NCBI GenBank assembly: GCA_964017185.1
Contig: OZ024875.1
Location: forward strand, 61,003,043-61,067,042
Length of the DNA stretch: 64,000 bases
Direction: 5' to 3'
Source: Rugalucina vietnamica
Lineage: Eukaryota; Mollusca; Bivalvia; Lucinida; Lucinidae
Below, in pieces: positions 19,014 through 61,832 of this stretch. The first letter of the stretch is position 1. Each line of letters begins with the position of its first letter. A program made the translations under genes and the position numbers. The notes beneath the pieces were generated by a model. That model saw only the letters and a list, made by a program, of their open reading frames with translations, did no database searches and was not told the origin of the DNA.

Positions 19014-21086
19014 ATGAAACAACTGTTAGCTGCCTTCATACTTTCATTCTTTGGTAAGTCATTCTTCTGTATTATAACATTTTACCTGATAATCTGAAGA
19101 GTTCCCGTTCATCATGTACATACGGAAAGTCAAAATTATACAACATGATGTATAGCGAATCCAAATCACCCAGATTTACTTGCTACATGAGGAAGTGATG
19201 ATGTCTTCCTTTACCTGATTTTATTTTGCAATTAATTCGTAGATGACACTAACGACTTTGTCAATAGGCTGTGGAAAAGTAGCATCTCGACGTATCAGTT
19301 TTCTTTGTGGGCTTTTGCAGTCTTAAGAATCGAATCATACTCGTGAAAACGATACATCCATTTTATAATAGTATTTAATGTATTGTTCAGACATTGTAGT
19401 AAATCGCGAGTTATGCCTAAAGAGACCCCGTCCAAAGGTTTACTTGTCCTGTGATTCTTGCTGTGGTCCAGATGATGAACAGTAACGGTTGTGAAGATGA
19501 TACCACTACCAGCACAACAACAGAAACAACAACAGCGGCGTAGGTTACTCATTTTATTGTCTCCAATTGCATCTCGTAGACAGTTGAAAATGCAGTTCAG
19601 AACAATTAGCAAGGCACTTACTTATGAGCCTGTGCATGAGAAAACCAACAATTTGGGTTTCCGACCAGGTCTGACACAAACCAGCCTGTACAGTCACAGA
19701 AGAAACCCAGGATCTTGAAAATTTGGGTATAAGTAGAAGAGGAAATGTACTATCCGTGTAGCGAAAACAAAGACGCTGATCAGCTTCGCGGTTACCGCGA
19801 AGCTGATCTGCGTCTTTGTTTTCGCCCATGCAAAAATCCGGTTTTCTCACGATGCGGCTCAAATGGTCAGATACATTTTTCTTGAACCGGTGATGTTCAG
19901 GGTATATAAATTCAGTTGTGTAAGGCATTTACACACAACACGGACATAATAATAATAATAATAATAATAAAGCAGAAATTCAAACAATTCAAACAAACAA
20001 ACAAACATGTATCATGGAGCGCCTGGTGTTTAAGGAACGGTTAATTAAAGCGTTTTAGTCAACCCGGCAAAGAAGATGGGCTTTCTTTACGTTAGATTAT
20101 TTTTTCTTTAAGAGCTGAGAATGGGCCATACCGCAGATATCTTGTTTTCTTTTATGCCTCAGATTTTAATACAATGCCGTACTATATACATACATGTATG
20201 TTTCACATTGTTTTAGACCTCAATGGTGGGTTGTAGGGGTGTGTGGTGGCATCAGTATATTGCTAGTGGTCATCTTTGTCGTGGCGCTGTTAGTGTGTAC
20301 CAAGAAGAAGATGCAGGAAAGGATGCTAGCAACACGAGAAATGTCTTGTAAGGTGATTTTAATTCTCATTCTGTCTCGAAGTCAATTGCAAATTACTTTG
20401 GGGCTACTTTTTTCAGAAATTGAAAATACCTCATTTTTAGTGTGGAACTTTGGTGCTGATTGCAACAGTCCCTAGTCGTTGCTTTTTTCCTTTTTTAACA
20501 TTCTGTGTTAAAGATTTCATTGAATATTCGTCTGTGAGTCTAAATACATTTTAAAATAAAAATAAGTCGAAATTGGTCTAAATAATCCATCGGTTGTTTA
20601 TTTTAAAAAGAACATTCTGATTTTTTTCCCTGTTTAATAATTGTTGATAGTTTTTCTTTTGCAGTGGCACCTGCGTCGACATTTCATGAGACTTCATTTA
20701 CCCGAGCAATCACAGTGGAACCAGCACGACCACCGCCATACTCCATGGAAACGCCTACAGACAGACCGCCATCTTACCAATCACAACGATCGGCGAGAAG
20801 ATCAGGGAGGTACAGTGAAAGAAGTCTTCAAAATTCTAGAACTTTAGCACCATTAGATACAAATGTTTTACCCGCCATTCGCCCACCAGATTCAGGAGGA
20901 CTTCCGGATTACACAACGATGTGTCTCTCGGATATGGAAGAACCTACGCCAGAAAGTAGTTCGCAGATTAATACGCAGACAGTTTCGAGGCTATCTGACA
21001 ATAGAAGTGCTAACAGGTCGTCGTCGTTTTCAGTTGAGAGTCCAAGGTCACCACCCCCACCGTATTCTAGACATGCATATGAGTAG
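19014..21086 (+). CDS. Single-pass membrane protein with PPxY tail, WBP1/VOPP1-like (4 exons)
   Basis: I assemble exons 19014-19053, 19391-19481, 20217-20347 and 20665-21086. All junctions are GT..AG and phases agree (1, 2, 1), giving 684 nt, 227 residues. Exon 1 encodes MKQLLAAFILSFF, a signal-peptide-like start, before donor GTAAGT. Exon 2 gives a short ectodomain with Cys at C..(11)..CDSCC. Exon 3 gives PQWW, a membrane segment at about 49-71 and a basic KKK stop. Exon 4 is a Pro/Ser-rich cytoplasmic tail with PPPY (110-113), PPSY (122-125) and PPPY (218-221). PPxY motifs bind WW domains, e.g. of NEDD4-type ubiquitin ligases. The layout recalls WBP1/WBP1L and VOPP1; the family name is inference. 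Donor 2 (CA|GTAACG) is the weakest site. A family P MITE sits in intron 2. Confidence 0.72.
19626..19860 (+). mobile_element. Family P MITE in intron 2 of the PPxY gene, mixed-subtype ends
   Basis: The left end is GAGCCTGTGCATGAG, as in the copy at 2183, with which the left half is nearly identical. The right end is the GATGCGGCTC subtype, as in 45680-45914. The flanks (TTAT and AAAT) do not form a duplication. The palindrome is intact around GCGGTTACCGC. Confidence 0.9.
19930..20216. other. Intronic sequence with (ATA)n and GGGCCATACCGC word
   Basis: A short (AAT)n run lies at 19948-19971. GGGCCATACCGC at 20127-20138 is shared with 4617 and with a near-copy (GGGCCATGCCGC) at 16559. Confidence 0.5.
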
Positions 21087-22865: not shown

Positions 22866-23899
22866 AAACAACGAGCTTTCTACATGTACACATACTTGCG
22901 TTTGGTTGAAAGGTGTTCTCTTGATGAAGACTCGAGGAAATGGCAACGACAAAAGGCGCTTTTATGGAAGTTCGCCGACCGGCATTTTCTTTTTATATGT
23001 TACACGAAGTTGCTTCGATTTTGCTTTTTGGCATGTCCAACTTCGAGGGACAATCGATTGTTTCGCTAAATTACAGGTAAATCGCTAAACAGGGGAATTA
23101 ACTGAGTTTTCTGGGAAAATCGATACTACCTGTCAGAGTTCTCTTCGTTACAACTATACCTGTATCTTACCTTTAGAATATAGTCACTGTTGTCAAGGAT
23201 ACGTGCGCATACGATAAATGTCTAAAGTGAAGGTTGCAGATTTTGATAGGTTTACCCTCTTCAAATGCGATAATATAAGCAGGGGCAAATCAAAACAGGT
23301 CGCTTCTTGGAAAATTTTAATTTCTGTTTTCGCTACATTAAATTAATTTACGCATTTCACCAAATACTTAAAGCCTTGAAAACAATTAAATTTAAATGAA
23401 TTAGACACGTACATGTATTTTATAATTTTATGATGAGCGTGTATGTATTTGTATGTGTGGATGCAAATTATCGCAAAGTCAATCAATTACATGTACATGT
23501 ATGTACATATGTGTACTTTATAAATCCAGCCACAGTTAAGGCTTAAAGCGCATGTAATAATCTAAATACCATAATCAGAATAATCAGAAAAAAGCACAAT
23601 TTTAATCAATTTAAAACAAAAATCCTGATTTAATTTAATTCTTCAAAATATGCGGTTTTCTTGAAACAAGTATGGTAAACTAGATTTTCATATGCGGCAC
23701 AAAAACAAACTCGCAAATCATTTTTTTCTTATTTCACACACATAGTCATTTTTTGTGTGTGAGCAACAGGTTTGAATCCAGCCAGGTCGGAAAATCTATA
23801 TACAGTTTGTGTCGCGGCGCGTCAAGTTGGTACATAAATTATGCGTCCTTTAGTCCTTACAACAGACACGTGCCCTCAGGTAAATGTTTGCGCAGATTT
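22866..23899. other. Intergenic, no gene recognised
   Basis: Two overlapping frames of 60-69 codons at 22860-23088 show no family features. The stretch has many 'acatgtac'-type words. Confidence 0.4.
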
Positions 23900-24130
23900 G
23901 AGCCGCGATGCGAGAAAACTTGTCATCGGTGTTTTCGACAAGGTCTGACATAAACCAGGCTGTACAGTCAAAGACAAGGCTAGAAGCTTGAACTTTTGGA
24001 TTTAAGTAGAATAATAATTTTATTATCCGTGTAGCGAAATAAAAGGCGCTGATCATTTGTGCAGTTACTGTACAACTGTTCTGCGTCTTTTTCGCGTAGG
24101 CAAATATCTTGTTTTCTCATGATGCGGCTC
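23900..24130 (+). mobile_element. Family P MITE with ATTT target duplication
   Basis: GAGCCGCGATGCGAGAAAAC to GATGCGGCTC, flanked by ATTT at 23896-23899 and 24131-24134. The palindrome is partly decayed (TGTGCAGTTACTGTACA). Confidence 0.92.
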
Positions 24131-24264
24131 ATTTTATAGTTTCATATACCTGACACGCTCAGGTTTAAGGGCTACAAACCAGAATGTTTAGCTTCTTTAT
24201 TTTAGTTGATTTAGTCCTTGATAAAGTATTGGAATGATGATTAAATTGTTGAAAATAACATTAT

Positions 24265-31681: not shown

Positions 31682-32028
31682 GAAGAAACAAAAACGAATG
31701 CAGTGAACTCATGTAAATGTTGATTTACATTATTTCGATTTATGCGTTCATAAAGGGGCTTCATTCGGTTTGCTGTTAAGTAAACTTAGGTTTATCTCCA
31801 GCATGGATCATTTTTCAAGCAAGTGTTCATGAGTAGTATACAAGTTTATCTCCAGCATGGATAATTTTTCAAGCAATGTGAAAATAGTATCTGCTCTCTA
31901 CATTTTTTAAGGATGCTAATTGATCAACTGCAATACGGTCCTCGAAAATACAGGCACTGATTAGTATCATAGACCAGATGCCCAGCTGCATGATCAAACT
32001 ACCGATTACAATGTCCTTTGTCATAAAT
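31511..32028. other. Intergenic with A-run
   Basis: An A-run of about 30 bp lies at 31653-31681. 'gtttatctccagcatggat' occurs twice, at about 31790 and 31845. No gene. Confidence 0.5.
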
Positions 32029-32189
32029 GAGCCGCCGCATAAGATAACCAGCAATCTGCATATGCGAAAAAAAAAGCCCCAGATCATCCGTGCAGTGACT
32101 GCACGGATGATCAGCGCCTTTGTTTTCGCTACACAGATAGTACAATCCCTCTTATTCTTACATCCGAATTTGAGCTTCTATCTATAAAG
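32029..32189 (-). mobile_element. Family P MITE cut by the 45-bp array
   Basis: It starts with GAGCCGCCGC. The palindrome at 32082-32112 is perfect over 31 bp with arms GATCATCCGTGCAGT and ACTGCACGGATGATC around G. The long arm is lost where the tandem array begins. Confidence 0.88.
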
Positions 32190-34000
32190 AGTCTGTATGT
32201 GAGCTGCATAAACTTTGACTACTCTGTGTTTCACATCCTGTATGTGTGACTACTCTATGTTTCAGATCCTGTATGTGAGATACATAAACTTTGACTACTC
32301 TGTTTCAGATCCTGTATGTGAGATACATAAACCTTGACTACTCTATGTTTCAGATCCTGTATGTAAGCTGCATAAACTTAGTCTACTCTATGTTTCAGAT
32401 CCTGTATGTGAGATACATAAACTTTGACTACTCTATGTTTCAGATCCTATATGTGAGATACATAAACCTTGACTACTCTATGTTTAAGATCCTGTATGTA
32501 AGCTGCATAAACTTAGTCTTCTCTATGTTTCAGATCCTGTATGTGAGATACATAAACTTTGACTACTCTATGTTTCAGATCCTGTATGTAAGCTGCATAA
32601 ACTAAGTCTACTCTATGTTTCAGATCCTGTATGTGAGATACATAAACTTTGACTACTCTATGTTTCAGATCCTGTATGTAAGCTGCATCAACTTAGACTA
32701 CTCTATGTTTCAGATCCTGTATGTAAGCTGCATAAACTAAGTCTACTCTATGTTTCAGATCCTGTATGTGTGATACATAAACTTTGACTACTCTATGTTT
32801 CAGATCCTGTATGTGAGATACATAAACCTTGACTACTCTATGTTTCAGATCCTGTATGTGTGATACATAAGCTTTGACTACTCTATGTTTCAGATCCTGT
32901 ATGTGTGACTACTCTATGTTTCAGATCCTGTATGTGTGACTACTCTATGTTTCAGATCCTGTATGTAAGCTGCATAAACTTAGTCTACTCTGTGTTTCAG
33001 ATCCTGTATGTGAGATACATAAACCTTGACTACTCTATGTTTCAGATCCTGTATGTAAGCTGCATAAACTTAGTATACTCTATGTTTCAGATCCTGTATG
33101 TAAGCTGCATAGACTTAGTCTACTCTATGTTTCAGATCCTGTATGTAAGCTTCATTAACTTAGTCTACTCTATGTTTCAATCCTGTATGTAAGCTGCATA
33201 AACTTAGTCTACTCAATGTTTCAGATCCTGTATATGAGATACATAAACTTAGTCTACTATATGTTTCAGATCCTGTATGTGAGATACATAAACTTTGACT
33301 ACTCTATGTTTCAGATCCTTTTTGTAAGCTGCATAAACTTAGTCTACTCTATGTTTCAGATCCTGTATGTGAGATACATAAACTTTGACTACTCTATGTT
33401 TCAGATCCTGTAAGTGAGATACATAAACCCTGACTATTCTATGTTTCAGATCCTGTATGTGAGATGCATAAACTTTGACTACTCTATGTTTCAGATCCTG
33501 TATGTGAGATACATAAACCTTGACTACTCTATGTTTCAAATCCTGTATGTAAGCTGCATAAACTTAGTCTACTCTATGTTTCAGATCCTGTATGTAAGCT
33601 GCATAAACTTAGTCTGCTCTATGTTTCAGATCCTGTATGTGAGATACATAAACTTTGACTACTCTATGTTTCAGATCCTGTATGTAAGCTGCATAAACTT
33701 AGTCTACTCTATGTTTCAAATCCTGTATGTGAGATACATGTACATAAACTTTGACTACTCTGTTTCAGATCCTGTATGTGAGATACATAAACTTTGACTA
33801 CTCTATGTTTCAAATCCTGTATGTAAGCTGCATAAACTTAGTCTACTCCATGTTTCAGATCCTGTATGTGAGATACATAAACTTTGACTACTTTATGTTT
33901 CAGATCCTGTATGTGAGATACATAAACTTTGACTACTCTATGTTACAGATCCTGTATGTAAGCTGCATAAACTTAGTCGACTCTATGTTTCAGATCCTGT
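32190..34000. repeat. 45-bp tandem array, about 40 units
   Basis: The unit is 45 bp: TACTCTATGTTTCAGATCCT followed by GTATGTGAGATACATAAAC or GTATGTAAGCTGCATAAAC and a TTTGAC or TTAGTC end. Both variants are interspersed rather than separated. Because 45 is divisible by three, long frames stay open (15-residue repeats such as ILYVRYINFDYSMFQ), but they break repeatedly, have no common start, and frames are open on the minus strand as well, so I do not call a gene. Confidence 0.95.
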
Positions 34001-34118
34001 GGTGTTGAGAGCCAGTACACCAGTTGATGCATTTATCACACAGAGGAATGAAGTATGATCATCGGAAATCATAGACTGCATTGCAATGTGTACATGACCT
34101 TGTTGGAATTGATATCAT

Positions 34119-34220
34119 AATCAGCACCTTTGCTTTCAAAACAAACTATTATATCTAAATCGGAAGTTTCAAGCCTCTAATGGTGTTCTCTTGATAAGGT
34201 GCCTGGTTTGTGTAGAAAAT
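34119..34220 (-). mobile_element. Family P MITE fragment
   Basis: 'tcagcacctttgctttc' followed by 'aaatcggaagtttcaagcct' and 'ggtgcctggtttgtgt' match the long arm of family P. Both ends are missing. Confidence 0.6.
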
Positions 34221-34295
34221 AGGGATGGGCTGTAATTAAAGATGGCAGAACTTGTAGCTGAACCCTTCAAATTTGGCAATAAAACATATTTAAAC
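34221..34295 (+). mobile_element. Solo 3' tail of the retrotransposon family seen at 16663-18005
   Basis: GGGATGGGCTGTAATTAA, CAGAACTTGTAGC and GCAATAAAACATATTTAAAC match the minus strand of 16663-16735. No coding part remains. It is followed by an (AC)n run at 34310-34339. Confidence 0.75.
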
Positions 34296-34305
34296 TGAAA
34301 GTGGT

Positions 34306-34309
<4 letters not shown>

Positions 34310-34339
<30 letters not shown>
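34310..34339. repeat. (AC)n microsatellite
   Basis: About 14 AC units directly behind the retrotransposon tail. Confidence 0.95.
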
Positions 34340-34340
<1 letters not shown>

Positions 34341-34810
34341 CAATACTTCTGCAGTTTCAGTGCTCCTTGAATCAAAATCAAATTCATGAAGTTTAGGCAA
34401 ACATACAGTTTTAGAAGCCGAGTGGTCAGACGAGTTTTCTTTAAAGTGAGATTTGTTGTGATATAAGAGATGAGATAATGCTTGGATGGTCATTTGCAGT
34501 TATAGCTTGACAAGTGATTAACCAATATTTGGCGTGCATGGTTATGCATTTCACTACAAATTTGTAATCCAAAACTTGCTTACTTGTAATAGATAACTGC
34601 TTTTCTTAACTTCGACTCCATGGTACCGAGAGCATGGGAAAGAAATCATGACCAACCTCAAAGAATGAACATTGGGCTGACTGAGATTCAATACTGTATA
34701 TTCTTTGATTTAATGTTTTATGTCCACACATATTTAACAGCTACATTCATGTTCATATGGTCACTTACATTCATCCATCTGAGAGCAATGGACTTGACCA
34801 TCATAATCAT
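34340..34810. other. Intergenic, no feature recognised
   Basis: Only short frames without family features. Confidence 0.5.
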
Positions 34811-34811
34811 T

Positions 34812-35177
34812 TGGGTGTCAGAATAGCTCAGTATTTCTGAGCTATATACCTATTCCATAGGTTGCGGGTTCGCGCCCCGGCTTGGACGAATATATTTCTG
34901 AATAGAAATACAAAAGAAATTAATCAAGAATCCGACGGAACGTATGTGGTCTGGCTGTCGCCTTCCAAACGCGGTGGTTTCACAGGCACATTCCTGGAAG
35001 CCGAGATGTGACGACCTGGCTTTCCTCCACCTTGGGCAGCCCTGCACATAATACTCAGAAATGAGGGTGTCGCAGTATAGATTATACTAAGGGTGTCGCA
35101 GTATAGATAGATCCAGGAAGCTGAGATGTGACAACCTGGCTTTCTCAGGCAGCCCTGCACAAAATACTCAGAAATGA
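34812..35177 (+). mobile_element. tRNA-derived SINE-like element
   Basis: The head 34812-34886 has pol III promoter-like boxes: TAGCTCAGTATTTCTG (A-box region, D-arm-like) and GGGTTCGCGCCCCGG (B box and T-arm-like), with CCTATTCCATAGG between them as a short anticodon-arm-like hairpin. The body follows, including a partial tandem duplication of 'cagccctgcac' and 'actcagaaatgaggg' segments (34993-35075 and 35112-35183). The tail passes into a GGTTG repeat. Family not named. Confidence 0.55.
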
Positions 35178-35311
35178 GGGTTGGGTTGGGTTGGGTTAGA
35201 TTAGGTTAGGTTAGGTTAGGTTAGGTTCGGTTCGGTTCGGTTCGATTCGATTCGATTCGATTTGATTACATTCGATTCGATTCATTAGATAGATAAGATA
35301 GATAGATAGAG
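35178..35311 (+). repeat. Pentamer microsatellite drifting through GGTTG, GGTTA, GGTTC, GATTC, then GATA
   Basis: Successive blocks of GGTTG, (TTAGG)n, TTCGG, TTCGA and finally AGAT units form a chain of one-base changes. The TTAGG block equals the arthropod-type telomere unit, but it is only about five units long and lies in a repeat tail. Confidence 0.9.
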
Positions 35312-35380
35312 TCCACTTTCATGTTTAGGGGCACAGGAGTAAGTCAGTCCTTGATGATAAAGTAACTGATGGTACCCTAC

Positions 35381-35495
35381 CATGAGCACCCGACTACCCA
35401 GTCGTCCATGCTCCAGCTTGGGTCACCCATCCAGCCACTAACCAAGCTCAACGTTGCTTATCTTGCGACAATATCCAGACACACTACGCGTCGCT
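35381..35495 (-). repeat. 5S rRNA-derived sequence (SINE or pseudogene)
   Basis: Minus-strand words match the 5S rRNA internal promoter region in order: AAGATAAGCA (5S AAGCTAAGCA), GCTTGGTTAGTGGCTGGATG (5S CCTGGTTAGTACTTGGATG), GGGTGACC (5S GGGAGACC), then CTGGGTAGTCGGGTGCT (5S CTGGGAATACCGGGTGCT) after an insertion of about 17 bp. The 5' third is poorly matched. This is not an intact 5S gene. Confidence 0.6.
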
Positions 35496-36134
35496 GTAAA
35501 AGCTAGCTCATACAGCAAGGCTGTATATGTGTCTGATATACCTGTGGCACCCCAGCCACTACATGACATTCCTCTAAGCAAACAGAAACACCCAAGATGG
35601 GACGCTGCATTTTGCGGCATCACATCTGGGCTATGCTGTTTGCCTATGTCAGGCTACAAACAGAATGCTAGCTCATATGAGTTAACCATTACCACACTGA
35701 TCAAGGGCAAGCCCTTCTCAGGCAGATTACCATTAGTTAGTGTATATTTCATTCACCACTGACTGTGACATGCTTTTCTTTAACCAGCTAAAATGGAAGA
35801 ATAGCCAATAAAATAATTTCAGGACCAAGTCTTCATGAAAGAAATGTGCCGGAAATGGGGGGTTAAGTGTGTGTCCCAGTAAACCCAAATAAATGAGAGT
35901 ACATAATCCAATACTTTTGAATAAAATATTTCTCATATTGGTGGCATATAAAACAAAGATTTTGTTCTTTTTTTGTTCAACTTTAATAGCTTAATAAAAA
36001 TATTAGCAAAAATAATAAAATAAGCCTTATAATGAACAAGCTGGCAAGCATATATAAAATACTAGATAAAATGAGTTGACAATAATCTAACAACTGTTAA
36101 AATTCAGATCAGTAAAATGCTAAAATTCAGATCA
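35496..36134. other. Intergenic
   Basis: A 102-codon plus-strand frame (35454-35762) overlaps the 5S-derived sequence and has no family features. The rest is AT-rich. Confidence 0.45.
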
Positions 36135-36253
36135 GTCACCCATGTACTATCCATGTAGTGAAAACAAAGGCGTTAAAAAGCTGTGCATTTACTGCACAGC
36201 ATATCTACGTCTCTTTCGAAAAGACGAACGACCATTTCTTCATGAGGAGGCTC
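36135..36253 (+). mobile_element. Family P MITE, right half, degraded
   Basis: 'gtactatccatgtagtgaaaac' in shortened form, the palindrome remnant GCTGTGCATTTACTGCACAGC and the end GAGGAGGCTC remain. Confidence 0.8.
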
Positions 36254-36749
36254 AACTGATAGAAATGTTTAAAAATATCAAACAAGACAGCAGCCAAACT
36301 CGCTCATACTGAAAACATGTTTAAAATAATGCATCAACTTGTTAATTTTAGAAAAAAATAATACAGAGATCTGCATAAAATGGTTTTGATACATGCATAC
36401 AACCTGTAATTCCATAAACTGCAACAATATAACAACCTTTTTTATCACAAATAATTTGTAAATGTGTTCTGGAATGTGATTAGAAGGCAAACAAGAAACA
36501 TCATAACTTTCCAACAAAAATATAAATGATACATGTACTTTCTGAACAAATAAGTCAAACATTAAAAATAATTATGGACCAATAGTTGCATAAAATAATG
36601 CCTTACTTTATAATAAAGGAAAAACGGTTTGCAAAACACATAAAAAATGTATTAACATTAACAAAACCTTTATCAGTAGATTTATTAAATTCATAATGTT
36701 AAAATTTGTTTTAAATTATCAAAATCTGAACTTCAAAGTCAACAAGAAT
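36254..36749. other. AT-rich intergenic, no feature recognised
   Basis: Nothing beyond AT-rich sequence. Confidence 0.5.
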
Positions 36750-36756
36750 TACCATA

Positions 36757-38003
36757 TTCGTTCTAATTAGCGCACATGCTAACATATTGGTATTTTACAC
36801 CAACACTACGCACTAATACCAATCAATACCGCATTAGACACATTAAAACTCAACCGTAAATGATCAAAAACTACTTTGCAACAATTTAAACACTTAAATG
36901 ACATCACCATTGATAGATTTGACATGGTTATTTCAGCATTTTGATGTGTTGTTTTCGTTTCGTTCGTACGAGGATGATCCAATAATGAATGAGACTTTTT
37001 GAATTAATCCTATGTAAATAAACTTGGCTTCTTGTAAATATATCATTAACATTGCTCAACATAACGCGCACACAAGGCACTGGTTAAAGGGCACATGTAG
37101 ACAACTACATCTTGTTGCTTAGCAACAGGAGAAAGCGAGTTAAATGTCCTTGGCCACGTAGCAATTATGCACATAAAATGGGTTGCCATGGCAACTGGTG
37201 ATAAAAAATCCTTTCATGGCATACTGTTGTTTATAGTTATCATTACTAGCTTTATGCTCTGCAAATATCACTTACATACAGCTGATAATTCAAGTAGGCT
37301 GAGTGATTTTGCAACAAAAGATGAGTTTTGTTTGCAAAAGAATTCAATGATTTTGGGGGTAGGGGTGAGAAATACCTCAAACCCTGAGTATACATGACAC
37401 GATAAAATGTTTTTAATCTTGAAATGATCAATTATGGGGTAAATATTGCAAATAAATTACAAAAGTGACACTTGACCTTTTCTTTTTACGTTGCCTAGCA
37501 ACTATAGAATTTGGAAAATGCTATTAGCCAGAATTCATATAGTAAAATGGTTGCTAGGCAACCACCTCTTAATCACGAGCGCAAGACTCGATATGACCAA
37601 AGCAAAATATTTCAGAGATGAATGTTAACACAGGCAATACTCAATTATGATAAGGAACCGTATTTAAATTTTGTGACATAGTCAGATATCTACAGGCTAT
37701 GTTTGTTTGAAGGGCAAATGGTGGCCATAGGTGCTGCACGAGTAGTTCTTAAATAACCATAGCAACCAAAGTTATCTGCCAAATTTGATAAAACTTGCTC
37801 CAAAGAGAGATCACATGTGTATCTTGTAAACAAAAGTAGTAAACTTGAGCCAGTCAATAGGGTTTATAGAATAAGAGAAAAGTCTCAATCATTATTGGAT
37901 CATCCTCGTAGTGTGCACTAATTAGAACAATATTTTCTTACCATATCTTTTAGTTATGTTGAAAAATTAAGCACATCATGCGCTAATTAGAACCATTACG
38001 GTA
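36757..38003. mobile_element. Nested terminal-inverted-repeat element(s)
   Basis: Inner pair: TACGAGGATGATCCAATAAT at 36966 and its inverse ending near 37909, extending to about 33 bp with few mismatches (944 bp apart outside to outside). Outer pair: GTTCTAATTAGCGCACATG near 36761 against 'gtgcactaattagaac' near 37913 and again 'catgcgctaattagaac' near 37979. No transposase is encoded, so it is non-autonomous. The form of the inner ends recalls Tc1/mariner-type elements; this is inference. A 76-codon frame at 37167 inside it is not supported. Confidence 0.7.
37114..37563. promoter_or_regulatory. Cluster of four X-box (RFX)-like palindromes
   Basis: GTTGCTTAGCAAC at 37114-37126, GTTGCCATGGCAAC at 37182-37195, GTTGCCTAGCAAC at 37490-37502 and GGTTGCTAGGCAACC at 37549-37563, plus a weaker ATAACCATAGCAACC at 37753-37767. 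These fit the X-box consensus bound by RFX factors that control cilium genes. All lie inside the TIR element. Binding is inference. Confidence 0.5.
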
Positions 38004-38277
38004 TGTTTATTTGTATCTTGTTTTTCCATATCTGTCAAATGAAGACTGAAGCAAAGTACAATGTACTAACATTTATGGCTCTAATGAATAATCAGAAGAC
38101 AATAACTTTGGCATACTCTTTAACAATTTGGCTCAGATTCATCAGTAAATTGCTTTAATATAGCATGTGTGCTTTAAAAAAAATGGAAAAGAACAGCCAC
38201 AATATTCTCTAACAATATGGTCATTGTAAAGGCCGCATGGTACACGAAGTCCTGTACAATTTATTAAAACAAACAGA

Positions 38278-38860
38278 CTTGTCCACCGGGGTCCAACTGG
38301 TGTTTTTCTTTTGCTCCGGAGTTAGTAGGTTATTCGGCGCCCAGGGATCTCCATCGTCGGGCAGCTTACTCAATCTGTGAGTCCTGGGTTTTGATTCATC
38401 AGGATGTTTATCATGATTTATTTGTTTGTTCTTGATGATTCATTGACTAGTTAGAGATTCACCACAAGGACCAAATAACTAACTAAATGTTATGAACCAC
38501 TGCAGAAGCTGAGGGTGAGGTTAGGTACCTGTAAAACCGGTTTAAGCCCGCCAGTAACTGTGTTACTGATCGTTCCAAGTCGATACTTCTGTAGTGGTTC
38601 TTTTTGTTTCATGTCTTGGTGTTTACAATTTTTTGTGCTGTTGGCGCCTTATGTATGTTTTCATATTTTTAGTTAAGTTAAGGTAACTGAGTGGCCACCT
38701 ATTGGGAAAATAGCTGCTCATTCGGCTTACGATATGTTTCATGGTATAATGTACCTGATTCTTGGTTTGGTTTTTTCCCACCTCGGTTTTTGGAGTGGGA
38801 ATCTTTTTCTGATTGCGCATTTTCCTGATCTTTGCCTACTTGTACCTTTTGGTAACCAGT
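38278..38860 (+). repeat. Family M, longest copy
   Basis: It runs from 'tccaccggggtccaactgg' to 'tttgcctacttgtaccttt' and is the direct counterpart of the inverted copy at 13480-14065. Confidence 0.85.
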
Positions 38861-39201
38861 CAAGAGCATGGCTTTACAAAGACCTTATTGTTGCATACCG
38901 GTAGTACTAAATGTAAGTACATTGATCAGCAGTTACATGTATATATCTACTTTGTTTCTTGGATAGTAAAACCTATCTTACTTCAAAATTAAAAATTCAA
39001 ATAATAATTCTAAAGAAGTTATTATTTTGTAGGGCTACCTATTAAAACTATGTACATGTACAAGATTCATTACATATAAAACATTATGTCATAATGCACT
39101 TTGAGTAGGCTGAGTATTCACAGTAAGCATGCATGGAGCAAAGTAATGGTTTTTCAATGAATGCAATCACAACCTAAGATGCCAAGCAATGAATATAAAG
39201 A
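38861..39201. other. Probable 3' UTR and downstream region of the kelch gene
   Basis: No clear AATAAA on the minus strand was found near the stop. No other feature. Confidence 0.3.
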
Positions 39202-42200
39202 TTATGTATGTGGATAAGCAACTTGAAGAAGCCCTACTTTGTGGAACCCGGGTCCTACTAACAAAACATCACCAAAATTACCAGTCTCAACATCATAAGT
39301 GCCCAAATATGCATCAGCATCCTGGTTACACAGGAAGTAGATCTTGTTTCCATAGAAACAAACATGGCGGAATAAATGGCCGAAATTCTCAGGAGTAGAG
39401 GTAATGGCTGTCCATTGTCTGGTTTCCATGTCATAGACCTCATTTTCAAAACAGTCTTTAAATCCTCCAAATTCTGACCCCATATATCCACCAATGACAA
39501 TCAGCTTTCCATCATGTGGGGTTATGCTGTGACCTTGCCGAGGGGTCAACATGGGAGCTAATGGCGACCAGGCGTCTGCACCGTCAGTCAGACTGAATGT
39601 TTCCCCTATAGGAACAGGTTTTGATTCATTGTCACTGATTCCTCCACAAACGTATAAAATATTGTTACAAACAGCTGCTGCAAGATCAAAACAGCCTTGT
39701 GGTAATGATGCAAGATTTTTCCATGCATTTTCTTCTGGATTATACATCTCTGCAGACGACAAAATCTTCTCCGGATCCTCCATGTCCCCAAGCTTGTGAA
39801 ATACCCCACCCACTACGTACATCCTTGTCTCAGAGTTACATATTGCAAACGACACTCTCGGTTGATTCATTGAGGCCACTTCCTCCCATTCTCGTAACTT
39901 GGGTTCATACCTGAACATCCGATTACTGCTCCCATAATTATCAACGCTATACCCACCAACAGAGAAAAGGAAATTCCCTATTGTTGCCTGACTGGATGTA
40001 CTATAATCAGTCCCTAATCTTGACTCACTCAAGTTCTCTATAAATAGATTAGACTCAGCAATCTCTGGATCTTTGTAGACGACAACGTTGTGGTTCGTCT
40101 CGTCGTTAAATGATGACACTATGACGGTAGGACGAGCACCTCTCGGCATGTATTTCTCTCCCTTCTTCAAACACTGAGAGGCTACATCAAAACAAAATGA
40201 TTTGGCTTCTTCGACCTGTAAGTAAGGCAAAAAGTGAAACATAAACCAATTAAATACAACGGTTTTGCAAACATATGAGACTGAAATGGTACTGTATTTA
40301 ATTGATTCCAGTCTTTGAACAAACAATATTGCAAGTACAATTTTAGCAATAAGGACTAGACCCACTATACTGCGAATTGGTGTTTTAACATAATGATCTA
40401 ATACTGTGATCCATTAGCAATGCAAACATACATTGTATATTCTAAAGGCTGGTTTGACCGTTTATTTTGTTTGGTTGTATTGTGGTTTGACATCCAAGTC
40501 AACTATTTTTCTATCATTTAAGGATGGATTTACTACATGTACTTTATATTTTACTTCCTGCACATTGACCATTTTTATTTGCAGTTCACGTGTCTTGCTA
40601 GAGGCCAAAATCTGGTGCCAGTGGGGTTCAAACCCTGACCTCTCAGCCCAGAGTTTGAGGCTCTATCACCATGCCAACTGTGCTTGAGTACTGCCCTATT
40701 TTCACCAACTAAGCCATAACCAAAGTATATGAGAGCCACGCCATGAGAAAACCGGATTTTGCCTTGGCGAAATCAAAGGCACAGATCAGCCTTGCAGCAA
40801 CTGTTAAGCTGATCAGCACCTTTGTTGTCGCTACACGGATAGTACAATCCCACTTCCTCTTAAAACCGAAATTGCAATGTTGTAGCCTGCTTCTGTGACT
40901 GTACAGGCAGGTTTGTGTCCGGCCTGGTCGGAACCCCCAAAGACCGGTTTCCACACGTATCTGCTCATGACTTGAGTACCCACCTCCTCTCTAATTTCAG
41001 GAAACTCCATGACCTCCCGTGGAATGGCTTCTAGTTCCTCAAGATCCATAGTCGGGAACCGTAGTTGTCGTAGTAACGGCAAGAAATGTTCTTTTCGCGT
41101 CCTGTCATCTAGGTGAACCCACTTTACTATGAGCTGCAAAGTACAGAGAAAAACAGTTTATCAGTGTACATGTTGAGCTTTTAAGTGTAATTTCTTCTTT
41201 TTTTTTAGCAGTTAACTATCAGGCAAATCTTGAGAAACTTTTCTACTTGTATGCAGAGCAGGTATAAAATGTTCTTGAAACCCCATACAATATTACATTA
41301 ACATGTACAAAATTTAACAAATACAAGTAAATAAGACAAATTTTAGTATTTTTCAGAATCAAAAGTTACTGCACAGCTGATCTGAGTCTTTGTTTTCCCT
41401 ACAAGGATAGTACAATCCATCTTCTTCTTCAGGTTTCTAGACTTCTTCTGTAGCTGTAAAGGCTGGTTTGTGTCAGACCTGGTCGGAAACCCCGAAGACC
41501 AGTTTTCTTCCCTAGAGGCTCATTTTTTAAAGTTCTTTACCTCGAGTAATCCAAACTCTGACACTTCAACAAACATGCCCTCCATCAAGAACTGTTGGAG
41601 CAACTCGGATGACAATTCCTTCAGGAAATTCTCTTTCTCCACCAAGAATGGCAGATTGTTACCAAAGTGGCGGAATATCTCCCATCTCAACTCGCCAAGC
41701 GAAAACTTATCAGCCAGTTGCATTGTTTTGGAGTAGTCCACAAGGTACATGTACCTCATCAGAAAGTCACAACAAACTTCTGTGACCCAGTCTACTTGGA
41801 AGAATCTTGCAGCTTCAAGAATGTCCGGAACTACTTTCGGCTCTATGGTAACAATCCCGTAATAAAAGTAGTCCAACATGGCGGTAAACCCTGTCGCACT
41901 GATCTCCTTAATTTCTACTTCTTTTTTGTTCTTCTCTTTCATATCATGGCTAAACATGGCCGAGAAATATTTGCTGCCTTCTTTCAAAACTCTTTTGTGA
42001 CCCTTGAAAGTTTTCCCGCCAACTTTGAGATCCACATCACAACCTCTTTCGTCATTGTACTTGACCTTGACCTCTAGAAAGTTAGTATTGGTGTATTTGA
42101 TGTGATTTTCTGACAGTTCCAGGAACTCAAATGGTGGTTTTTCCTCTGGTTCTCCAATCAAATCGCCATTAATCTCGTTTACTGCTGGGAAACCCGCCTC

Positions 42201-42230
42201 TCCACCCTCAGCAAAGTTACTCATAGCCAT
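39202..42230 (-). CDS. BTB-BACK-kelch protein (KLHL type), 3 coding exons
   Basis: Exons on the minus strand: 42230-41541, 41133-40984 and 40215-39202, all phase 0, with donors CTCGAG|GTAAAG and GAGGAG|GTGGGT and acceptors TTTGCAG and CTTACAG. The product is 617 residues, normal for a kelch-like protein. BTB about 54-160 (CDVDLKVGGKTFKGHKRVL), BACK about 165-275 across exons 1 and 2 (VKWVHLDDRTRKEHF), and kelch repeats about 300-600 with repeated GG and W marks (FSVGGY, YVVGGV, YVCGGI, IVIGGY). Such proteins usually act as substrate adaptors of CUL3 ubiquitin ligases; the substrate is unknown. The leader exon begins at 42267 after acceptor TATTTTCAG, so at least one more upstream exon exists. 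Introns carry family P MITEs. Confidence 0.88.
40604..40690 (-). repeat. tRNA-like remnant in a kelch intron flank
   Basis: Read on the minus strand, TGGTGATAGAG and GGGTTTGAACCCC are spaced like the A and B boxes of a tRNA-derived sequence. The arms do not fold into a complete tRNA. It could be an old SINE head. Confidence 0.3.
40733..40966 (-). mobile_element. Family P MITE in kelch intron 2, ATGA target duplication
   Basis: GAGCCACGCCATGAGAAAACC to the end at 40966, flanked by ATGA at 40729-40732 and 40967-40970. The palindrome is decayed (CAGCCTTGCAGCAACTGTTA). In transcript sense its first base is 17 nt after the end of coding exon 2. Confidence 0.92.
41367..41521 (-). mobile_element. 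Half family P MITE in kelch intron 1
   Basis: It begins at the centre of the palindrome (GTTACTGCACAGCTGATCTG) and continues through the long arm to GAGGCTC at 41521. In transcript sense it starts 19 nt after the end of coding exon 1. The other palindrome arm and short end are missing. Confidence 0.85.
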
Positions 42231-42443
42231 CTTTATAGGTAGTGTATTGGCTTTATTGACTCACAACCTGAAAATAAAATCATTCAATTGCTTGTGTTTT
42301 TTTTTGTGTTTTTTTTTTAAGTTTGAGTTAGTGCTGTAAGTCCGTGTTCAACAGCTATGGTCATGTTTGGACGGACAGTTATTCTAGCCACACTGTTCGT
42401 GGTGAAACCTCTTGAAGATAGGTAACCAGTGATGAGAACATAT

Positions 42444-42631
42444 GAGCCGCCATGCGAGAAAACCGGTCTTCTGGGTTTCCCACCAGGTCTGACACAAACC
42501 GACATGTACAGTCACAGAAGATGGCTAGAAGCTTGAAATTTCGGATCTAGGAAGAAGAGGTGTTACTGCACAGCTGATCTGCACCTTTGTTTTCGCATAG
42601 GCAATAATCCCGTTTTCTCACGAAGCGGCTC
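42444..42631 (+). mobile_element. Family P MITE lacking one palindrome arm, upstream kelch intron
   Basis: Ends GAGCCGCCATGCGAGAAAAC and GAAGCGGCTC are flanked by ATAT on both sides (42440-42443, 42632-42635). The left palindrome arm and about 45 bp before it are deleted, the sequence resuming at GTTACTGCACAGCTG. Confidence 0.92.
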
Positions 42632-43494
42632 ATATTTCTTTCAACACTAACTGACAACTACCCTTCTTCAACCCTTCAATTGAAAACATGTCTTTAACAT
42701 TGGACTCCAAGTATGCTGCTCCACTGCAAATTTTAAATACAAATTTCAAATGACTGAAATCGTATACATGCTAGTGCATGTATACGATTTCGGCCATTTA
42801 AACTTACATGTGCGGTGCTCCAGTCACTATTGGTTATTTCCAACCCCATTCAAATAGAAAAGATGGCCAAACACTATTCCAATTGATCAATGTAATATTC
42901 AAATAAATTTTGAACACAGTTGTATTATACTGACTAATACACCTTTGAAATACACTTATTTAACTCCTACACAATTCAGGTTCAAGGTTATTTTGAAAAT
43001 AAAATAAATATGATTTATAGCATTTCAAAAAACATCTGTTTGAAAACTTATTTGAATCCACTTTGAAAGATGTACATGGAAATTTGTCAGAAACAACAAA
43101 ATATGCATAAATATTAATACACATCATGATCACAAACTGTTTGTGGCCCAACCAACTAAACAATTTTTAGATGAGACAGGGTCCTGTATGCTTTGACCCA
43201 AACTTTCATGAATTAAGATAACTTTTGTGCAGGCTGGTGTGTGTTGGACAGAGAATATATAGCCATGAATATAGCTACATCACAAGAACCCCAGTCTTCA
43301 AAATGTCAGATGACTAGATCAGACTAAACTGTGCGGTACAAACACAAATACAGCTAAGTCTTGAAAACAAGAGGGACTTAAAATTGTCTACCTGTAAGTA
43401 CTTAAGTAAAATGGCCCACTGGCATGGTTTTTTACATCAGCACTTGTTTTGACATGTTTTCTTATGATATTGTTCAATTAATCCACATTCATTC
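42632..43494. other. AT-rich, no gene recognised
   Basis: A short inverted pair 'gaaatcgtatacatgc' and 'gcatgtatacgatttc' lies at 42757-42790 (perfect 16-bp arms, almost touching), otherwise nothing. Confidence 0.5.
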
Positions 43495-43660
43495 AGTAAC
43501 TGCACAGCCGATCAGCGCCTTTGTTTCCACTACTTGGATAGTACAATTCCTCCTCTACCTACAATTTCAAGATTCTAACTTTCTCCTGAGACTGTACGGG
43601 CCGTTTTGTTTCAGACCTGGTTTGGAAACCCAGAATACCGGTTTTCTCATGTCGCGGCTC
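43495..43660 (-). mobile_element. Half family P MITE, starting at the palindrome centre
   Basis: CAGTAACTGCACAGCCGATC followed by the long arm and end GTCGCGGCTC. The other half is missing, as in the copy at 41367. Confidence 0.85.
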
Positions 43661-44107
43661 ATATTTATTTTATCCACGTTAGTTGTTCCCAGTCATGTTC
43701 GTTGTGTCTGGATAACAGGTGTGCATTCCCTCCCCATTTAATCCTTTATAAATCAGACAATGGGAAAGGCTAATGTCAAATATATTCTAAAACTGAGTAC
43801 TCACTCAGACTCTATTCTAGAAAGACCTGTGGTGATTTGCCTCTTTTGTAGTCTAACATTCAATTAACACCTTTTCAGTCATGTCGGGAAGGAGCCAAAA
43901 ACCAGCACTATGGGGAAATGATGTGTCTTGCTCGAGAGAACTGCTCGGTGGCAGGGGGGTTCAACTTGGCATTTGATGCTCCACATTTCCAAAACTGTGA
44001 TAAAACTGCTCGAGGATAAATTTCAGCTTTGACCCAAAAGTGGGTTTTTACGAGTTATGTCGCTAGCCTATGATGACTCACTGTTCCCCACAATGCTGGT
44101 CTCATAT
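43661..44107. other. Intergenic with a weak inverted pair
   Basis: ACCAGCACTATGGGGAA at about 43902 and TTCCCCACAATGCTGGT at about 44085 are inverted with two mismatches, suggesting another small element of about 200 bp. Confidence 0.35.
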
Positions 44108-44320
44108 GAGCCGGAACGCAAAAAAAACAGTCTTTGGGGTTTCCGAGCAGGTCTGACACAAACCAGCATGTGCACCTACAGAATCTTGTTAAAAGCTTGA
44201 AATTTCGTATTTAGGAAGAAGAGGAATTGTACAATCTGTGTAGCGAAAACAAAGTAGCAAAGCTCATCTGTGCCTTTGTTTTTGCATAGGCAAAAATCTG
44301 GTTTTCTCGTGACGCGGCTC
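44108..44320 (+). mobile_element. Family P MITE with ATAT target duplication and deleted palindrome core
   Basis: Flanks ATAT at 44104-44107 and 44321-44324. The core reads AACAAAGTAGCAAAGCTC, so most of one palindrome arm is gone. Confidence 0.9.
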
Positions 44321-44486
44321 ATATTGAGGTGTTTGTAACGATAAATGGTTGCATTTATCTGTCCCACAGCCCCTTAGGGGACATTGTTACAAATCACTGG
44401 TATGAGTCTTGAATCTATTATAACTTATTTATCATTATGTATGTACATGTATTATTTCTGACAAATTATTAATATACAAAATTAAT

Positions 44487-44720
44487 GAGCGGCTGCATCA
44501 GTAAACCAGCAATCTGCTTATGCCAAAACAAAGTGCAGATCAGCTGTGCAGTAACTGCACAGCTGATCTGCACCTTTGTTTTCGCTACACATACAGTACA
44601 ATCCCGCTTCTTCTTGAATCCGAAATTTCAAGCTTCTAGCCTACTTCTGAGACTGCACAACCAGGTTTGTGCCAAACCTCACCAGAAACCACGAAGACAG
44701 GTTTTCTTGAGTTGTGGCTC
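44487..44720 (-). mobile_element. Family P MITE with perfect 41-bp palindrome
   Basis: The palindrome at 44533-44573 has arms GTGCAGATCAGCTGTGCAGT and ACTGCACAGCTGATCTGCAC around a single A. Flanks are TAAT and AAAT. Confidence 0.92.
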
Positions 44721-44886
44721 AAATCATACCTTTAAGGCGTAAACAGCCACACCTACAGACCACACCTAGAGGGGAAATTTTCTGTCACAGCAGCTATGTA
44801 CCAAAGCTTTCCCGCCCACCTTTTGACCTTGACCTTGTCTTCACATTAGCCTAGCTATCACACCTGAAAATAGAAAATTTGTCCAT

Positions 44887-45290
44887 GCCATGATTGAAAA
44901 CAACAATCTGGGTTTCTGACCAGGTCTGACACAAACCAGGCTGCACATACATAGAAAATACAGTTCAACCTCATTATAACACGCCTCACTATAGTGCGGT
45001 TTTCAATATAACACGGCCATGTCATGGCTCCCAAATTAATTATTTTGCTATATGTCTATTGTAAATAACCTCATTATAACACGGTTCACTTATAACACGG
45101 TCTGTTTGCTTGGACCCCAAAGATAGCGTTATAATGAGGTTGACCTGTAGATAGAAACTTGAATTTTCTGATTTAGAAAGAAGAGACATTGTATCTATCC
45201 AGTATCCGCAGAGTGAAAACAATGACACAGAATATTTGATCGGTGCCTTTGTTTTCACATAAGCTGATTGTTGGTATTTTGATGTCAATC
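44887..45290 (+). mobile_element. Family P MITE interrupted by a pogo-like MITE
   Basis: Left part 44887-44960 ('gggtttctgaccaggtctg') and right part 45148-45290 ('gatagaaacttgaattttctg', 'ggtgcctttgttttcac') are continuous family P sequence once 44961-45147 and one TA are removed. The palindrome is decayed. Confidence 0.8.
44961..45147. mobile_element. pogo/Tigger-like MITE, 187 bp, TA target duplication
   Basis: Ends CAGTTCAACCTCATTATAAC and the inverse of CAGGTCAACCTCATTATAAC match at 19 of 20 positions and are flanked by TA (44959-44960 and 45148-45149). CAGT-type ends and TA duplication are typical of pogo-like Tc1/mariner elements. No transposase. Confidence 0.88.
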
Positions 45291-45679
45291 ATGAAATTTC
45301 ATTCACTTTAAGAGTTTGCAGATATCCATCTAGCAATGTCTTGGTCTCTAGCATTAACCTATCTAGATCTATGAACATTTAATACAATAATGCACAGTCA
45401 CATAATGGTTATCCTAAATAGTTGACATCCAGTAACTCTAACTTTCATTCTTATATGCACAATTTTAGGTTGTATATTAAACAGATTTGCTACCAAATAT
45501 GTACTTTAACAAAGATTTACTCCAAAAAAGATGTAATATACCTTATTTTATGCAAAAAATGGTACTTGATACTTTTTACTGACTAAACTTTGATTCATTC
45601 TTATCAGCTAGATCATCCACAGATATTTATCTTGATTTAGAAAGATAAAAAAAAATAATGCTCTATACTGATAAAAAAT
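45291..45679. other. AT-rich, no feature recognised
   Basis: No gene or repeat recognised. Confidence 0.5.
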
Positions 45680-45914
45680 GAGCCGCGACGTGAGAAAACC
45701 GGTCTTCGGGGTTTCCGACCAGGTCCGACACAAACCGGCCTGTACAAGCTCAGAAAAGAGCTAGAAGCTTGAAATTTCGGATTTAAGTAGAAGAGGAATA
45801 GTACTATCCGTGTAGCGAAAACAAAGGCGCTGATCAGCTTCGCGGTTACCGCGAAGCTGATCTGCGCCTTTGTTTTCGCATAGGCAAAAATCCGGTTTTC
45901 TCACGATGCGGCTC
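45680..45914 (+). mobile_element. Family P MITE, best-preserved copy
   Basis: 235 bp, GAGCCGCGACGTGAG to GATGCGGCTC, flanked by AAAT on both sides (45676-45679, 45915-45918). The 31-bp core 45832-45862 is a perfect palindrome with arms GATCAGCTTCGCGGT and ACCGCGAAGCTGATC around T, continuing outward as a long hairpin to GCGAAAACAAAGGCGC and its inverse with one mismatch. Confidence 0.95.
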
Positions 45915-45993
45915 AAATTATGTAAGGTAGTCTTGATTTGCTTTATTGAGAAATTTTGTATGATTTAAAATGTTGTTTTTATTGTTAAATTAT

Positions 45994-46232
45994 GAGCCGA
46001 CACATCAGAAAACCAACAATCTGCATAATGAGAAAACATTTAAGGCACAGACTAGCTTGATGGTAACCGTGAAGCTGATCGGAGCCTTTGTTTTCGCTAC
46101 ACAGGTAGTACAATCCCTCTTCTTCTTATATCCAAAATCTCAAGCTTCTAGTCTGCTTCTGTTACTGTACAGGCTGGTCTGAATCAGACCTGGTCCGAAA
46201 CCCAAATTTTTGGTTTTCTCATGCTGAGGCTC
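45994..46232 (-). mobile_element. Family P MITE, decayed palindrome
   Basis: GAGCCGACACATCAGAAAACC to ATGCTGAGGCTC. The core AGCTTGATGGTAACCGTGAAGCT has three arm mismatches. Confidence 0.88.
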
Positions 46233-46239
46233 ATATATA

Positions 46240-55185: not shown

Positions 55186-56227
55186 TTACGGATTGTCTCA
55201 TCAACATGGTCCTTGATACCTTCCACCTAGTGGGGACTACTCTGATATTTTCTATTTATATTTGGGTACGATTTTGTTGGGGTAGATGGGATTAGTGTAT
55301 ACATATAGGCTTGTTTGTACAGTACTAAAGATCGCACTTGAAAAAAATATGGGCTGTTGAAAAAAATCTTCGCTTGCATTTTATAGGTGAATTATCCTCT
55401 TAAAAACAGTGTGCCAGACTCCAAATTGAGAAGCCAGGGCTTCGAATCAAGCCCACTGGGACCGCATTGTGTGAAGCGCCAGTGGAAAATCTTTCCATAC
55501 CCACCGGAGATAAACCGTACACGTGATTTTCCGGTCTTGTTTAGTTTACTTGTTACTCATCGTTATAAGTTTGGCTCAGTATACATGTATCTTCAATTTC
55601 AACGTATGCCGTTCAACGATCAGGCAGTCAGGGTAATGCCACTAGTAAGGGCACTGTTGTTGTGACAATACTAAGTAAGAACACTGTTGTTGTCGGAACA
55701 TAAAACTTTCAATGCATAACAAAAATCTAAATGCGACAAAGCAGGCCATACCTCCCCCACTGAGGGTCAGGTGTATCGCCGAGCATTTCGTCTAATCCGC
55801 TTTCGGGGATTACTGTGAATAAATGAAATAATCTAGCTGCTTACATTAAAATGTTAAAAAATGACGGGCCTGTGAGCACACGAAAACTTCGGCGACCATG
55901 AGGACTGAAAAAGTTCATTTGGTTTAAAATTATAAATCAGAGCGTTGGGAACGACCAGAACGCCTTCTGTCGCTGGGGTTAATCGAACCATTTCGATGAG
56001 ATTTGTATTTCGTTGGTGGTTTCATAAAATTTATTGTCTATGCTTGAATATCAACTCATTTCAACACTATTGACCAAATCCATGTTGGCCCTATAATCTT
56101 AAAGTCTGAGACTGCCTAAGGACGGATTGTGCTGCAGTACATGCAAGTAATGGAACCCTTTCAACCGCCATCATTTTGCTTACATGTTGCTTTGTGCCCA
56201 TGGTATATGTGTAATAATAATAAAAAT
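55186..56227. other. Intergenic, no gene recognised
   Basis: At 55422-55460 'agggcttcgaatcaagccc' forms a T-arm-like hairpin, without the rest of a tRNA. Confidence 0.4.
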
Positions 56228-56464
56228 GAGCCTTCGTGTGAGAAAACTAACAATTCGGGTGTCCGACCAGGTCTAACACAAACCAGTTCTGTACAGTCAC
56301 AGAAGCAGGCTAGAAGCTTGAAATTTTGGATTTAAGAAAAAGTGGAATTGTACTATGTGTGTAGCGAAAAACAAAGGCGCTGATCAGCTTCGCGGTTACC
56401 GCGAAGCTGGTCTGCGCCTTTGTTTTCGCATATGCAAATTGTTGGTTTTCTCATGCGATGGCTC
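56228..56464 (+). mobile_element. Family P MITE
   Basis: GAGCCTTCGTGTGAGAAAAC to GCGATGGCTC, with a core of the CTTCGCGGTTACCGCGAAG type and one arm change (CTGGTC against GATCAG). Confidence 0.9.
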
Positions 56465-57366
56465 TAATAAATGATATATACATGTAATTGCATTCGCATC
56501 ATATATGTATTTAGGGTTTCTGATCGGTAAGATGATGTCGAGATACATGCTTGCTTGCATGATAAAAGAAACTTTCTTCAGCCATGTAGAATCCGCGACA
56601 GAAGTTGTCGGTTTGACACATGAGTGTATTTGCTTATAAATGTAGTTGGCATTTACTTAAAGAGTAAAGATTCAGAGTTGAGGTCTTAACGATGACGTTT
56701 TGAACAACTGGCTCCTGGTGGTTTCGATGATGACTCAAGAATGTAAAAAAAATAAAATATTTTGCTATTAAAATCATTAGTAAAGCTGACCTTTTAATTT
56801 TGCACAAATTAGGGTCTCTAATCTGGGTTCTAATCTTTTTAAGCGGATTTTATCAGACAAAAAGAACAATATAACACCCGATTTTCGCTGGACCTCCGCA
56901 AATAATCCGTATGAATAGGTAATTTCTTGATTTCTGCAAGATTTTTCATGTATCAAACAGATTATTTGTATTGTTAGTGACTTTACTTATAGGGCTTTCT
57001 AACTCTAAATTGGTCAGTTTAACAGCAGAATGAGGATTGGGAGCTTGTAGGATTGGGAGCATGTAAAGCTAAGTCTTCTCAAAATTTTAAATTTCCGATT
57101 TCCAACTTTGAAAATTAAGTTTTTGATAATGCATACTGTAAACGTTTTATTTCATCAGTAATTCAAACTACACACGCGTTTGTAACGCAAAAATATATTT
57201 CTTAAAACTAATAATTATTTTAGACAGTAGAAAGCGTCTTTGTAAATTGTAGCTAAATCTTCAAACGACCAAACAAATCAAATAAAAACTAAATTTTGCA
57301 TTTGGGGTTTTCCTTCCACATTAGTTTTGTTTATTAATCTTGTTATTTTTCCGCCAACAGCACAGA
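56465..57366. other. AT-rich, no gene recognised
   Basis: No gene or repeat recognised. Confidence 0.5.
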
Positions 57367-59510: not shown

Positions 59511-59696
59511 TGTCATGTAGAGATGGTCTGTTGTCTTAGCCACACTGTACCTTGGCAATGAGGCAGGTTAATACATATAACATAGAATACATTACAGGCT
59601 CTTATTGAATCAGCAGAAGATGAAGAATAGCTGTTGAAATATTTCCATAATCAAAATGTACAAGATGTGAACATTGATCCGAACCCACTTTATTAC

Positions 59697-61535: not shown

Positions 61536-61594
61536 CCATCCTACTCACTGATTCAACTCTGAACATGTCTGGCTTATCATACACTACAGTATTT

Positions 61595-61828: not shown

Positions 61829-61832
61829 ATTT

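Follow-up and report, generated by a model that had tools for sequence, protein, structure and literature searches.

How can the two arms of a palindrome differ from one copy of a repeat to the next and still match each other within each copy? The question is raised by three perfect 31-bp palindromes (45832-45862, 44538-44568 and 32082-32112) in a 64-kb stretch of DNA from the bivalve Rugalucina vietnamica (contig OZ024875.1, positions 61,003,043 to 61,067,042). This stretch, the window, is all the DNA that was analyzed, and every copy count below is confined to it. The palindromes lie in copies of a short mobile element that we call the P family. An earlier note on this DNA had reported that their arms differ at positions 6, 8, 9, 10 and 13, with every change mirrored on the opposite arm. 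The observation is confirmed: the coordinates and arms are correct, 15 of 15 arm positions are paired in each palindrome, and the five positions differ as described. The note had missed that 44538-44568 and 32082-32112 lie on the strand opposite to 45832-45862. Its interpretation is partly supported. Arm changes in the family are coordinated beyond chance, though partially, and known inheritance, copying and decay of palindromes can account for the pattern.

The palindromic core and the element that carries it

The 31-bp palindrome is the inner part of a 65-bp quasi-palindrome with arms of 32 nt and a T/T mismatch at arm position 16. In element orientation, the commonest core reads GCGAAAACAAAG(G/A)CGC-T-GATCAGCTTCGCGGT-T-ACCGCGAAGCTGATC-T-GCG(C/T)CTTTGTTTTCGC. 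The T/T mismatch is present in 13 of the 15 two-armed copies, and the center base is T in 14 of these copies and C in one. Three core types can be distinguished at arm positions 8/9 to 14: C (TTCGCGG), I, or intermediate (TTCGCAG), and G (GTGCAG). Counting palindromes with 16 or more paired positions out of 18 per arm, the window contains 18, compared to none in ten order-1 Markov sequences, each 64 kb long. Nine belong to the P family and three to a second hairpin family, five come from the A/T-rich patch at 470-930, and the last (42773) is in neither family. The three starting copies are as follows.

45679..45915, plus strand: e45679, full element with a C-type core; profile hit of 261 bits, both ends, AA/AA flanks
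45815..45879, plus strand: 65-bp quasi-palindrome of e45679 with T/T at position 16; its inner 31 bp are 45832-45862
44486..44721, minus strand: e44485, full element with a G-type core; profile hit, both ends
44538..44568, minus strand: perfect 31-bp palindrome of e44485; position 16 paired as A/T
32026..32205, minus strand: e32026, partial element with a G-type core and mirrored changes at positions 6 and 8; profile hit
32082..32112, minus strand: perfect 31-bp palindrome of e32026

An iterated profile search of the window, with overlaps removed, gave 30 hits, of which 26 reach at least 40 bits, to a mobile-element family of about 237 bp with the ends TGAGCC…GGCTCA. Both ends are kept in 15 copies of 190-241 bp (233-241 bp in 11 of them), and the terminal inverted repeats (TIRs) of these copies show 2-9 mismatches per 22 positions when one end is compared with the other. 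The 2-bp flanks are identical in 12 of the 15, compared to 4.1 in end shuffles (P=1e-5), and the matching dinucleotides are AA, TT, TA or TG. The core runs from near position 137 of the 237 to some 37 bp short of the right end. Because it is off-center, a single strand would fold as a TIR stem bearing a long hairpin; folding gave z=-14.6 for one copy as DNA and z=-12.1 for another as RNA. The TIR motif GAGAAAACCA agrees with the core motif GCGAAAACAA at 8 of 10 positions, a likeness that may be due to chance.

With its TIRs, 2-bp target duplication, short length and many copies, the P family is taken here as a non-coding, non-autonomous DNA transposon similar to miniature inverted-repeat transposable elements (MITEs). 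MITEs in general share these four features; the P family departs from them in its long internal quasi-palindrome near one end. No transposase gene was noticed in the element, the internal reading frames of which were not scanned singly, and no autonomous relative was found among the 9 of 20 listed open reading frames (ORFs) of the window that were scanned with Pfam. An Rfam scan of the window at the gathering threshold gave no matches. Two established classes were considered and rejected. Tc1/mariner elements duplicate TA only, and the P family, with AA, TT, TA and TG flanks, is therefore kept out of that group; it is placed in no superfamily. Helitrons and Helentrons, the DINE-1-like elements, insert without target duplication, whereas 12 of the 15 both-ended copies have a 2-bp duplication; a hairpin close to one end, as in these elements, is present in the P-family core.

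Among bivalve sequences, elements whose ends resemble TGAGCCGC are common. None of the titles and abstract openings listed in a literature search that excluded most subscription journals and Repbase describes the P-family element; in an octopus paper, the end letters TGAGAAAACC fall in a primer and in a gene fragment. Pattern scans of viral and genome contig collections supplied at least 224 stretches, in which a profile search with HMMER default filters found no full-length P-family copy. It gave 26 weak rows, the strongest of them on L058, a contig of an alphaproteobacterial metagenome-assembled genome (20.6 bits, E=1.8e-4).

Co-variation between the arms

The arm tests used the 15 copies with gap-free inner arms among the 26 aligned hits of at least 40 bits, 11 having been dropped with an arm or core missing or gapped. 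Within copies there are 18 arm mismatches; random re-pairing of the arms gives 46.3 across copies (P=5e-5) and, when kept inside a core type, 28.4 (P=5e-5). The result is similar for the 10 distinct arm pairs, whose 18 mismatches compare to 38.0 overall (P=5e-5), or to 27.0 (P=8.5e-4) if pairing stays within type. Counted by pairs (13 distinct rows, 19 pairs), double changes occur in 11 pairs, where shuffles give 4.5, and the share of paired cells is 92.3%, where shuffles give 84.1%; none of 500 shuffles reached either value. Arms of the same copy thus match better than arms of different copies, and the co-variation is real. It is weaker in the TIRs (103 mismatches versus 127 over 28 columns, P=0.0016; 73 versus 81.9 over 22, P=0.018).

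Could such a pattern arise with no special process, if the window had sampled a few lineages that differ by parallel CpG decay plus chance differences? The CpG observed/expected ratio of the window is 0.67, with TpG and CpA at 1.22. The changes at arm positions 10 and 13 are of the CpG to TpG/CpA kind, which can readily arise in parallel on both arms; the private change at position 11 in e45992 and that at outer position 19 in e44485 are also CpG transitions, and the second hairpin family's single mirrored change is another. However, mirrored non-CpG changes are present at positions 4, 6, 7, 8 and 9, plus outer positions 17 and 20, and without CpG columns 10-13 the excess persists (13 mismatches versus 26.2, P=1e-4). 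It is weaker when column 9 is also removed (13 versus 19.5, P=0.0017; 18.8 for distinct copies, P=0.0068). We consider an origin with no special process unlikely. The earlier contention that point mutation alone would be insufficient is not supported for positions 10 and 13.

The mirroring itself is less complete than the three palindromes suggest. The note's statement that every change is mirrored is true of these three, which are selectively tidy examples; 8 of the 15 two-armed copies are perfect over the 15 inner pairs, and the other seven carry unmatched changes, with 1-4 mismatches each. Private changes were counted from the nearest of the three core types, with CpG and transition weights of our own choice. 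There are 19 unmatched changes and 5 mirrored pairs, compared to 1.3 pairs expected in the mutation model (P=0.0033); without e32026 the excess of mirrored pairs is not significant (3 versus 1.2, P=0.09).

These counts bear on one of the mechanisms that the note had offered, in which the arms correct each other. Were every inserted copy under continual correction, the perfect inner arms of e32026 and e44485 would be readily explained, since 5-7 mismatches are predicted there from the non-core terminal branches. Similarly, 12 copies have 13 arm mismatches where the branches, which include time before insertion, predict 41, and the position 6 change seen on one arm in e14237 and e23899 is on both in e32026. 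However, private changes are mostly unmatched, which argues against continual correction at each locus; 19 unmatched against 5 mirrored implies that at most about one-sixth of private changes were corrected. Unmatched changes are retained in nearly half of the copies and the T/T mismatch persists. We regard continual correction as very improbable.

Further copies are listed here, two-armed copies first.

2182..2418, plus strand: full element, C-type core, inner arms perfect
19625..19861, plus strand: full element, C-type core, inner arms perfect, right end e45679-like (mosaic)
59100..59335, plus strand: full element, C-type core, inner arms perfect
61594..61829, plus strand: full element, C-type core identical to that of e45679 over 65 bp
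63910..64000, minus strand: element truncated by the window end, C-type core, inner arms perfect
56227..56465, plus strand: full element, C-type core, one arm mismatch
63546..63782, minus strand: full element, intermediate (TTCGCAG) core, one arm mismatch
14237..14357, minus strand: partial element (e14237), G-type core, one arm mismatch (position 6)
23899..24131, plus strand: full element (e23899), G-type core, three arm mismatches, one mirrored change
36143..36255, plus strand: partial element, G-type core, four arm mismatches, one mirrored change
40732..40967, minus strand: full element, core closest to the intermediate type, four arm mismatches
45993..46233, minus strand: full element (e45992), core closest to the C type, four arm mismatches, one mirrored CpG change
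1523..1745, minus strand: both-ended element, right arm partly deleted
18209..18435, plus strand: full element, core with a 9-bp deletion
42443..42632, plus strand: both-ended element, left arm deleted
44107..44321, plus strand: both-ended element, left arm deleted
41364..41522, minus strand: partial element, only left arm, A at arm position 16
43494..43661, minus strand: partial element, only left arm
59682..59892, minus strand: partial element, right arm truncated

Mosaic cores and the origin of new palindromes

Core types are mosaic relative to the rest of the element. Copies 45679 and 61594 have identical 65-bp cores, although their bodies differ by 25%, their left TIRs by 32% and their right ends by 39%. 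Core type (16 of 22 rows typed) requires at least three changes on the non-core tree and five on the body tree, in which 2 of 19 and 1 of 19 inner branches, respectively, are well supported. The nearest relative changes by segment in the 14 compared copies; copy 19625, for example, combines a body of the copy 2182 type with a right end of the copy 45679 type. The note had named, as an outcome that would count against it, separate families each amplified from one palindromic master. The data do not resolve cleanly into such families, the core types being found on intermixed bodies in trees with few supported branches.

We favor, at about even confidence, an account in which perfect cores come from rare arm copying in source elements, spread as blocks, and then decay normally in each insertion. 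One arm of an active source element would gain changes, and an occasional event would copy the changed arm onto the other, giving a new perfect core; the route may be fold-back of the nascent strand or a template switch, with a short tract near the center. Transposition and exchange between copies would spread the new core as a single block. Each inserted copy would then decay randomly, with CpG decay adding coincidental mirrored changes. New perfect cores would thus probably originate by hairpin-templated correction. Inheritance and exchange of whole cores accounts for the concerted arm differences between copies. Arm copying by template switch predicts neighboring mirrored changes, with which 9+10, 6+8 and 16+19 are consistent, although the events are few (the last is in e44485, where T/T became A/T along with a mirrored CpG change). 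The seven copies with 1-4 mismatches fit with decay after insertion.

Several points weigh against this account. The arm-copying step is one that we infer rather than observe directly. Arm position 20 occurs in the states G/C, A/T, G/T and A/C, as expected of stepwise change. Template switching should sometimes erase the T/T mismatch or, in its interstrand form only, flip the center, whereas 13 of 15 copies still have T/T and no center is flipped; short copying tracts near the center would reconcile copying with both. Further pair types, one of five pair measures, are only weakly in excess (18 versus 15.8, reached in 38 of 500 shuffles). Finally, for distinct copies without columns 9-13, the evidence weakens to P=0.049 in the within-type test and to P=0.07 when e32026 is removed.

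The main rival is selection on source elements, either for a hairpin or for a two-fold symmetric protein site, such that the transposition machinery, reading the palindrome as a folded single strand, a cruciform or a dyad, mobilizes only elements with matched arms and the T/T mismatch is a required bulge. Retention of the stem while its sequence changes, and of T/T in most copies, would be expected. So would a conserved core, and in six full C-type copies the variable columns number 4 of 65 in the core and 52 of 108 in the body (P=1.6e-9); these copies were picked by core and near-intactness, a selection that favors low core variation. With two C-armed copies added, the counts are 14/65 versus 60/108 (P=1.5e-5), and with two intermediate types, 23/65 versus 64/108 (P=0.003). 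In contrast, a larger set of 15 copies spanning all types shows no such conservation, the inner core varying much as the body does (22% and 24%) and the outer arms less (15%). No wobble preference, which would point to constraint at the RNA level, is seen among the 18 mismatched cells (5 GU, 4 AC, 9 other). An RNAalifold consensus of 12 whole elements has double changes in 11 of 62 pairs and an unfavorable covariation term of +0.81, so that a conserved whole-element fold is not favored. Nor was a transposase identified in the scanned window ORFs. Selection of this kind is possible but, in our view, doubtful.

The note knew of no description of concerted arm change for such an element. Compensatory hairpin changes are in print for both DINE-1 (PMC2374699) and REPINs (PMC3116915). 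In DINE-1 of Drosophila, the stem varies in sequence from species to species, for which the authors infer compensatory mutation. DINE-1 and the P family are alike in being short, mobile and non-coding, with inverted repeats and a hairpin close to one end. However, the DINE-1 stem is 7-11 nt, the comparison is between species and insertion is between TT (PMC2374699), whereas the P family has true TIRs, a 2-bp duplication and a 32-nt quasi-palindromic arm, compared among copies of a single genome. The REPINs of Pseudomonas, with compensatory stem changes, are bacterial, consist of two repetitive extragenic palindromic (REP) sequences and lack TIR transposon ends. E. coli REPs have a stem with a conserved mismatch bulge (PMC8266576), like the T/T of the P-family core. 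That the bulge is needed for activity speaks for selection; these REPs are bacterial, however, and a function of the P-family T/T would be hypothetical. The foldback element Tetris, as far as described in the portions available, offered no closer match.

For arm copying, template switching is described as a possible maker of compensatory stem changes, with a role in maintenance that the authors deem circumstantial (PMC8794818), and both arm homogenization and spacer inversion are reported at quasi-palindromes (PMC8604942). As in the P family, inverted-repeat arms are made to match by multi-base mirrored changes (PMC8794818, PMC8604942). Template switching also erases mismatches and may invert spacers, neither of which is the rule in the P family. 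Gap repair, template switching and ectopic recombination are given as sources of transposon diversity (PMC4168063). A more elaborate scenario would join these elements: a T/T-bulged hairpin would be the signal read by the transposition machinery, the arms would be rewritten during transposition-linked replication or gap repair, and new cores would spread through diverged bodies by palindrome-centered block exchange. We think this combination quite unlikely.

If arm copying is true, a high-copy element would provide many natural replicates of one quasi-palindrome, and one-event versus two-step origins of compensatory changes would be directly countable. There is also a warning here: covariation, often read as proof of RNA structure, may stem from inheritance, exchange and CpG decay in repeated DNA.

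The second hairpin family and other features of the window

The second hairpin family has arms of about 38 nt around a AACCGCCTCG center. Its differences, judged by eye, are mainly one-armed, with one mirrored CpG change, which indicates that strong co-variation is not general to hairpins here. In the same orientation, one copy has G as its center base where other copies have C.

49411-49520, 61342-61450 and 62417-62524: second-family copies, centers at 49464, 61395 and 62469
24336-24439, 59378-59459, 60452-60543 and 62724-62785: four weaker second-family copies
42773: palindrome belonging to neither hairpin family, paired at 16 of 18 arm positions
44960-45140: inverted-repeat stretch (CAACCTCATTATAACACG … GTTATAATGAGGTTG) between two P-family fragments
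32174-33933: tandem array of 45-bp units, adjoining the 32082 palindrome
10757-13131: array with repeats of roughly 187 bp
470-930: A/T-rich patch, inverted repeats containing GATATC
53475-54074: long poly-T and poly-A tracts, facing, about 300 bp between them
54241-55185, minus strand: RNase H-like frame, probably a retrotransposon piece
2684-4432 and 5854-7725, plus strand: long open frames

The two long open frames are weakly similar to condensation-domain/PapA acyltransferases, below Pfam cut-offs. A protein search with the 5854-7725 frame returned 18 proteins, one of which is the window's own.

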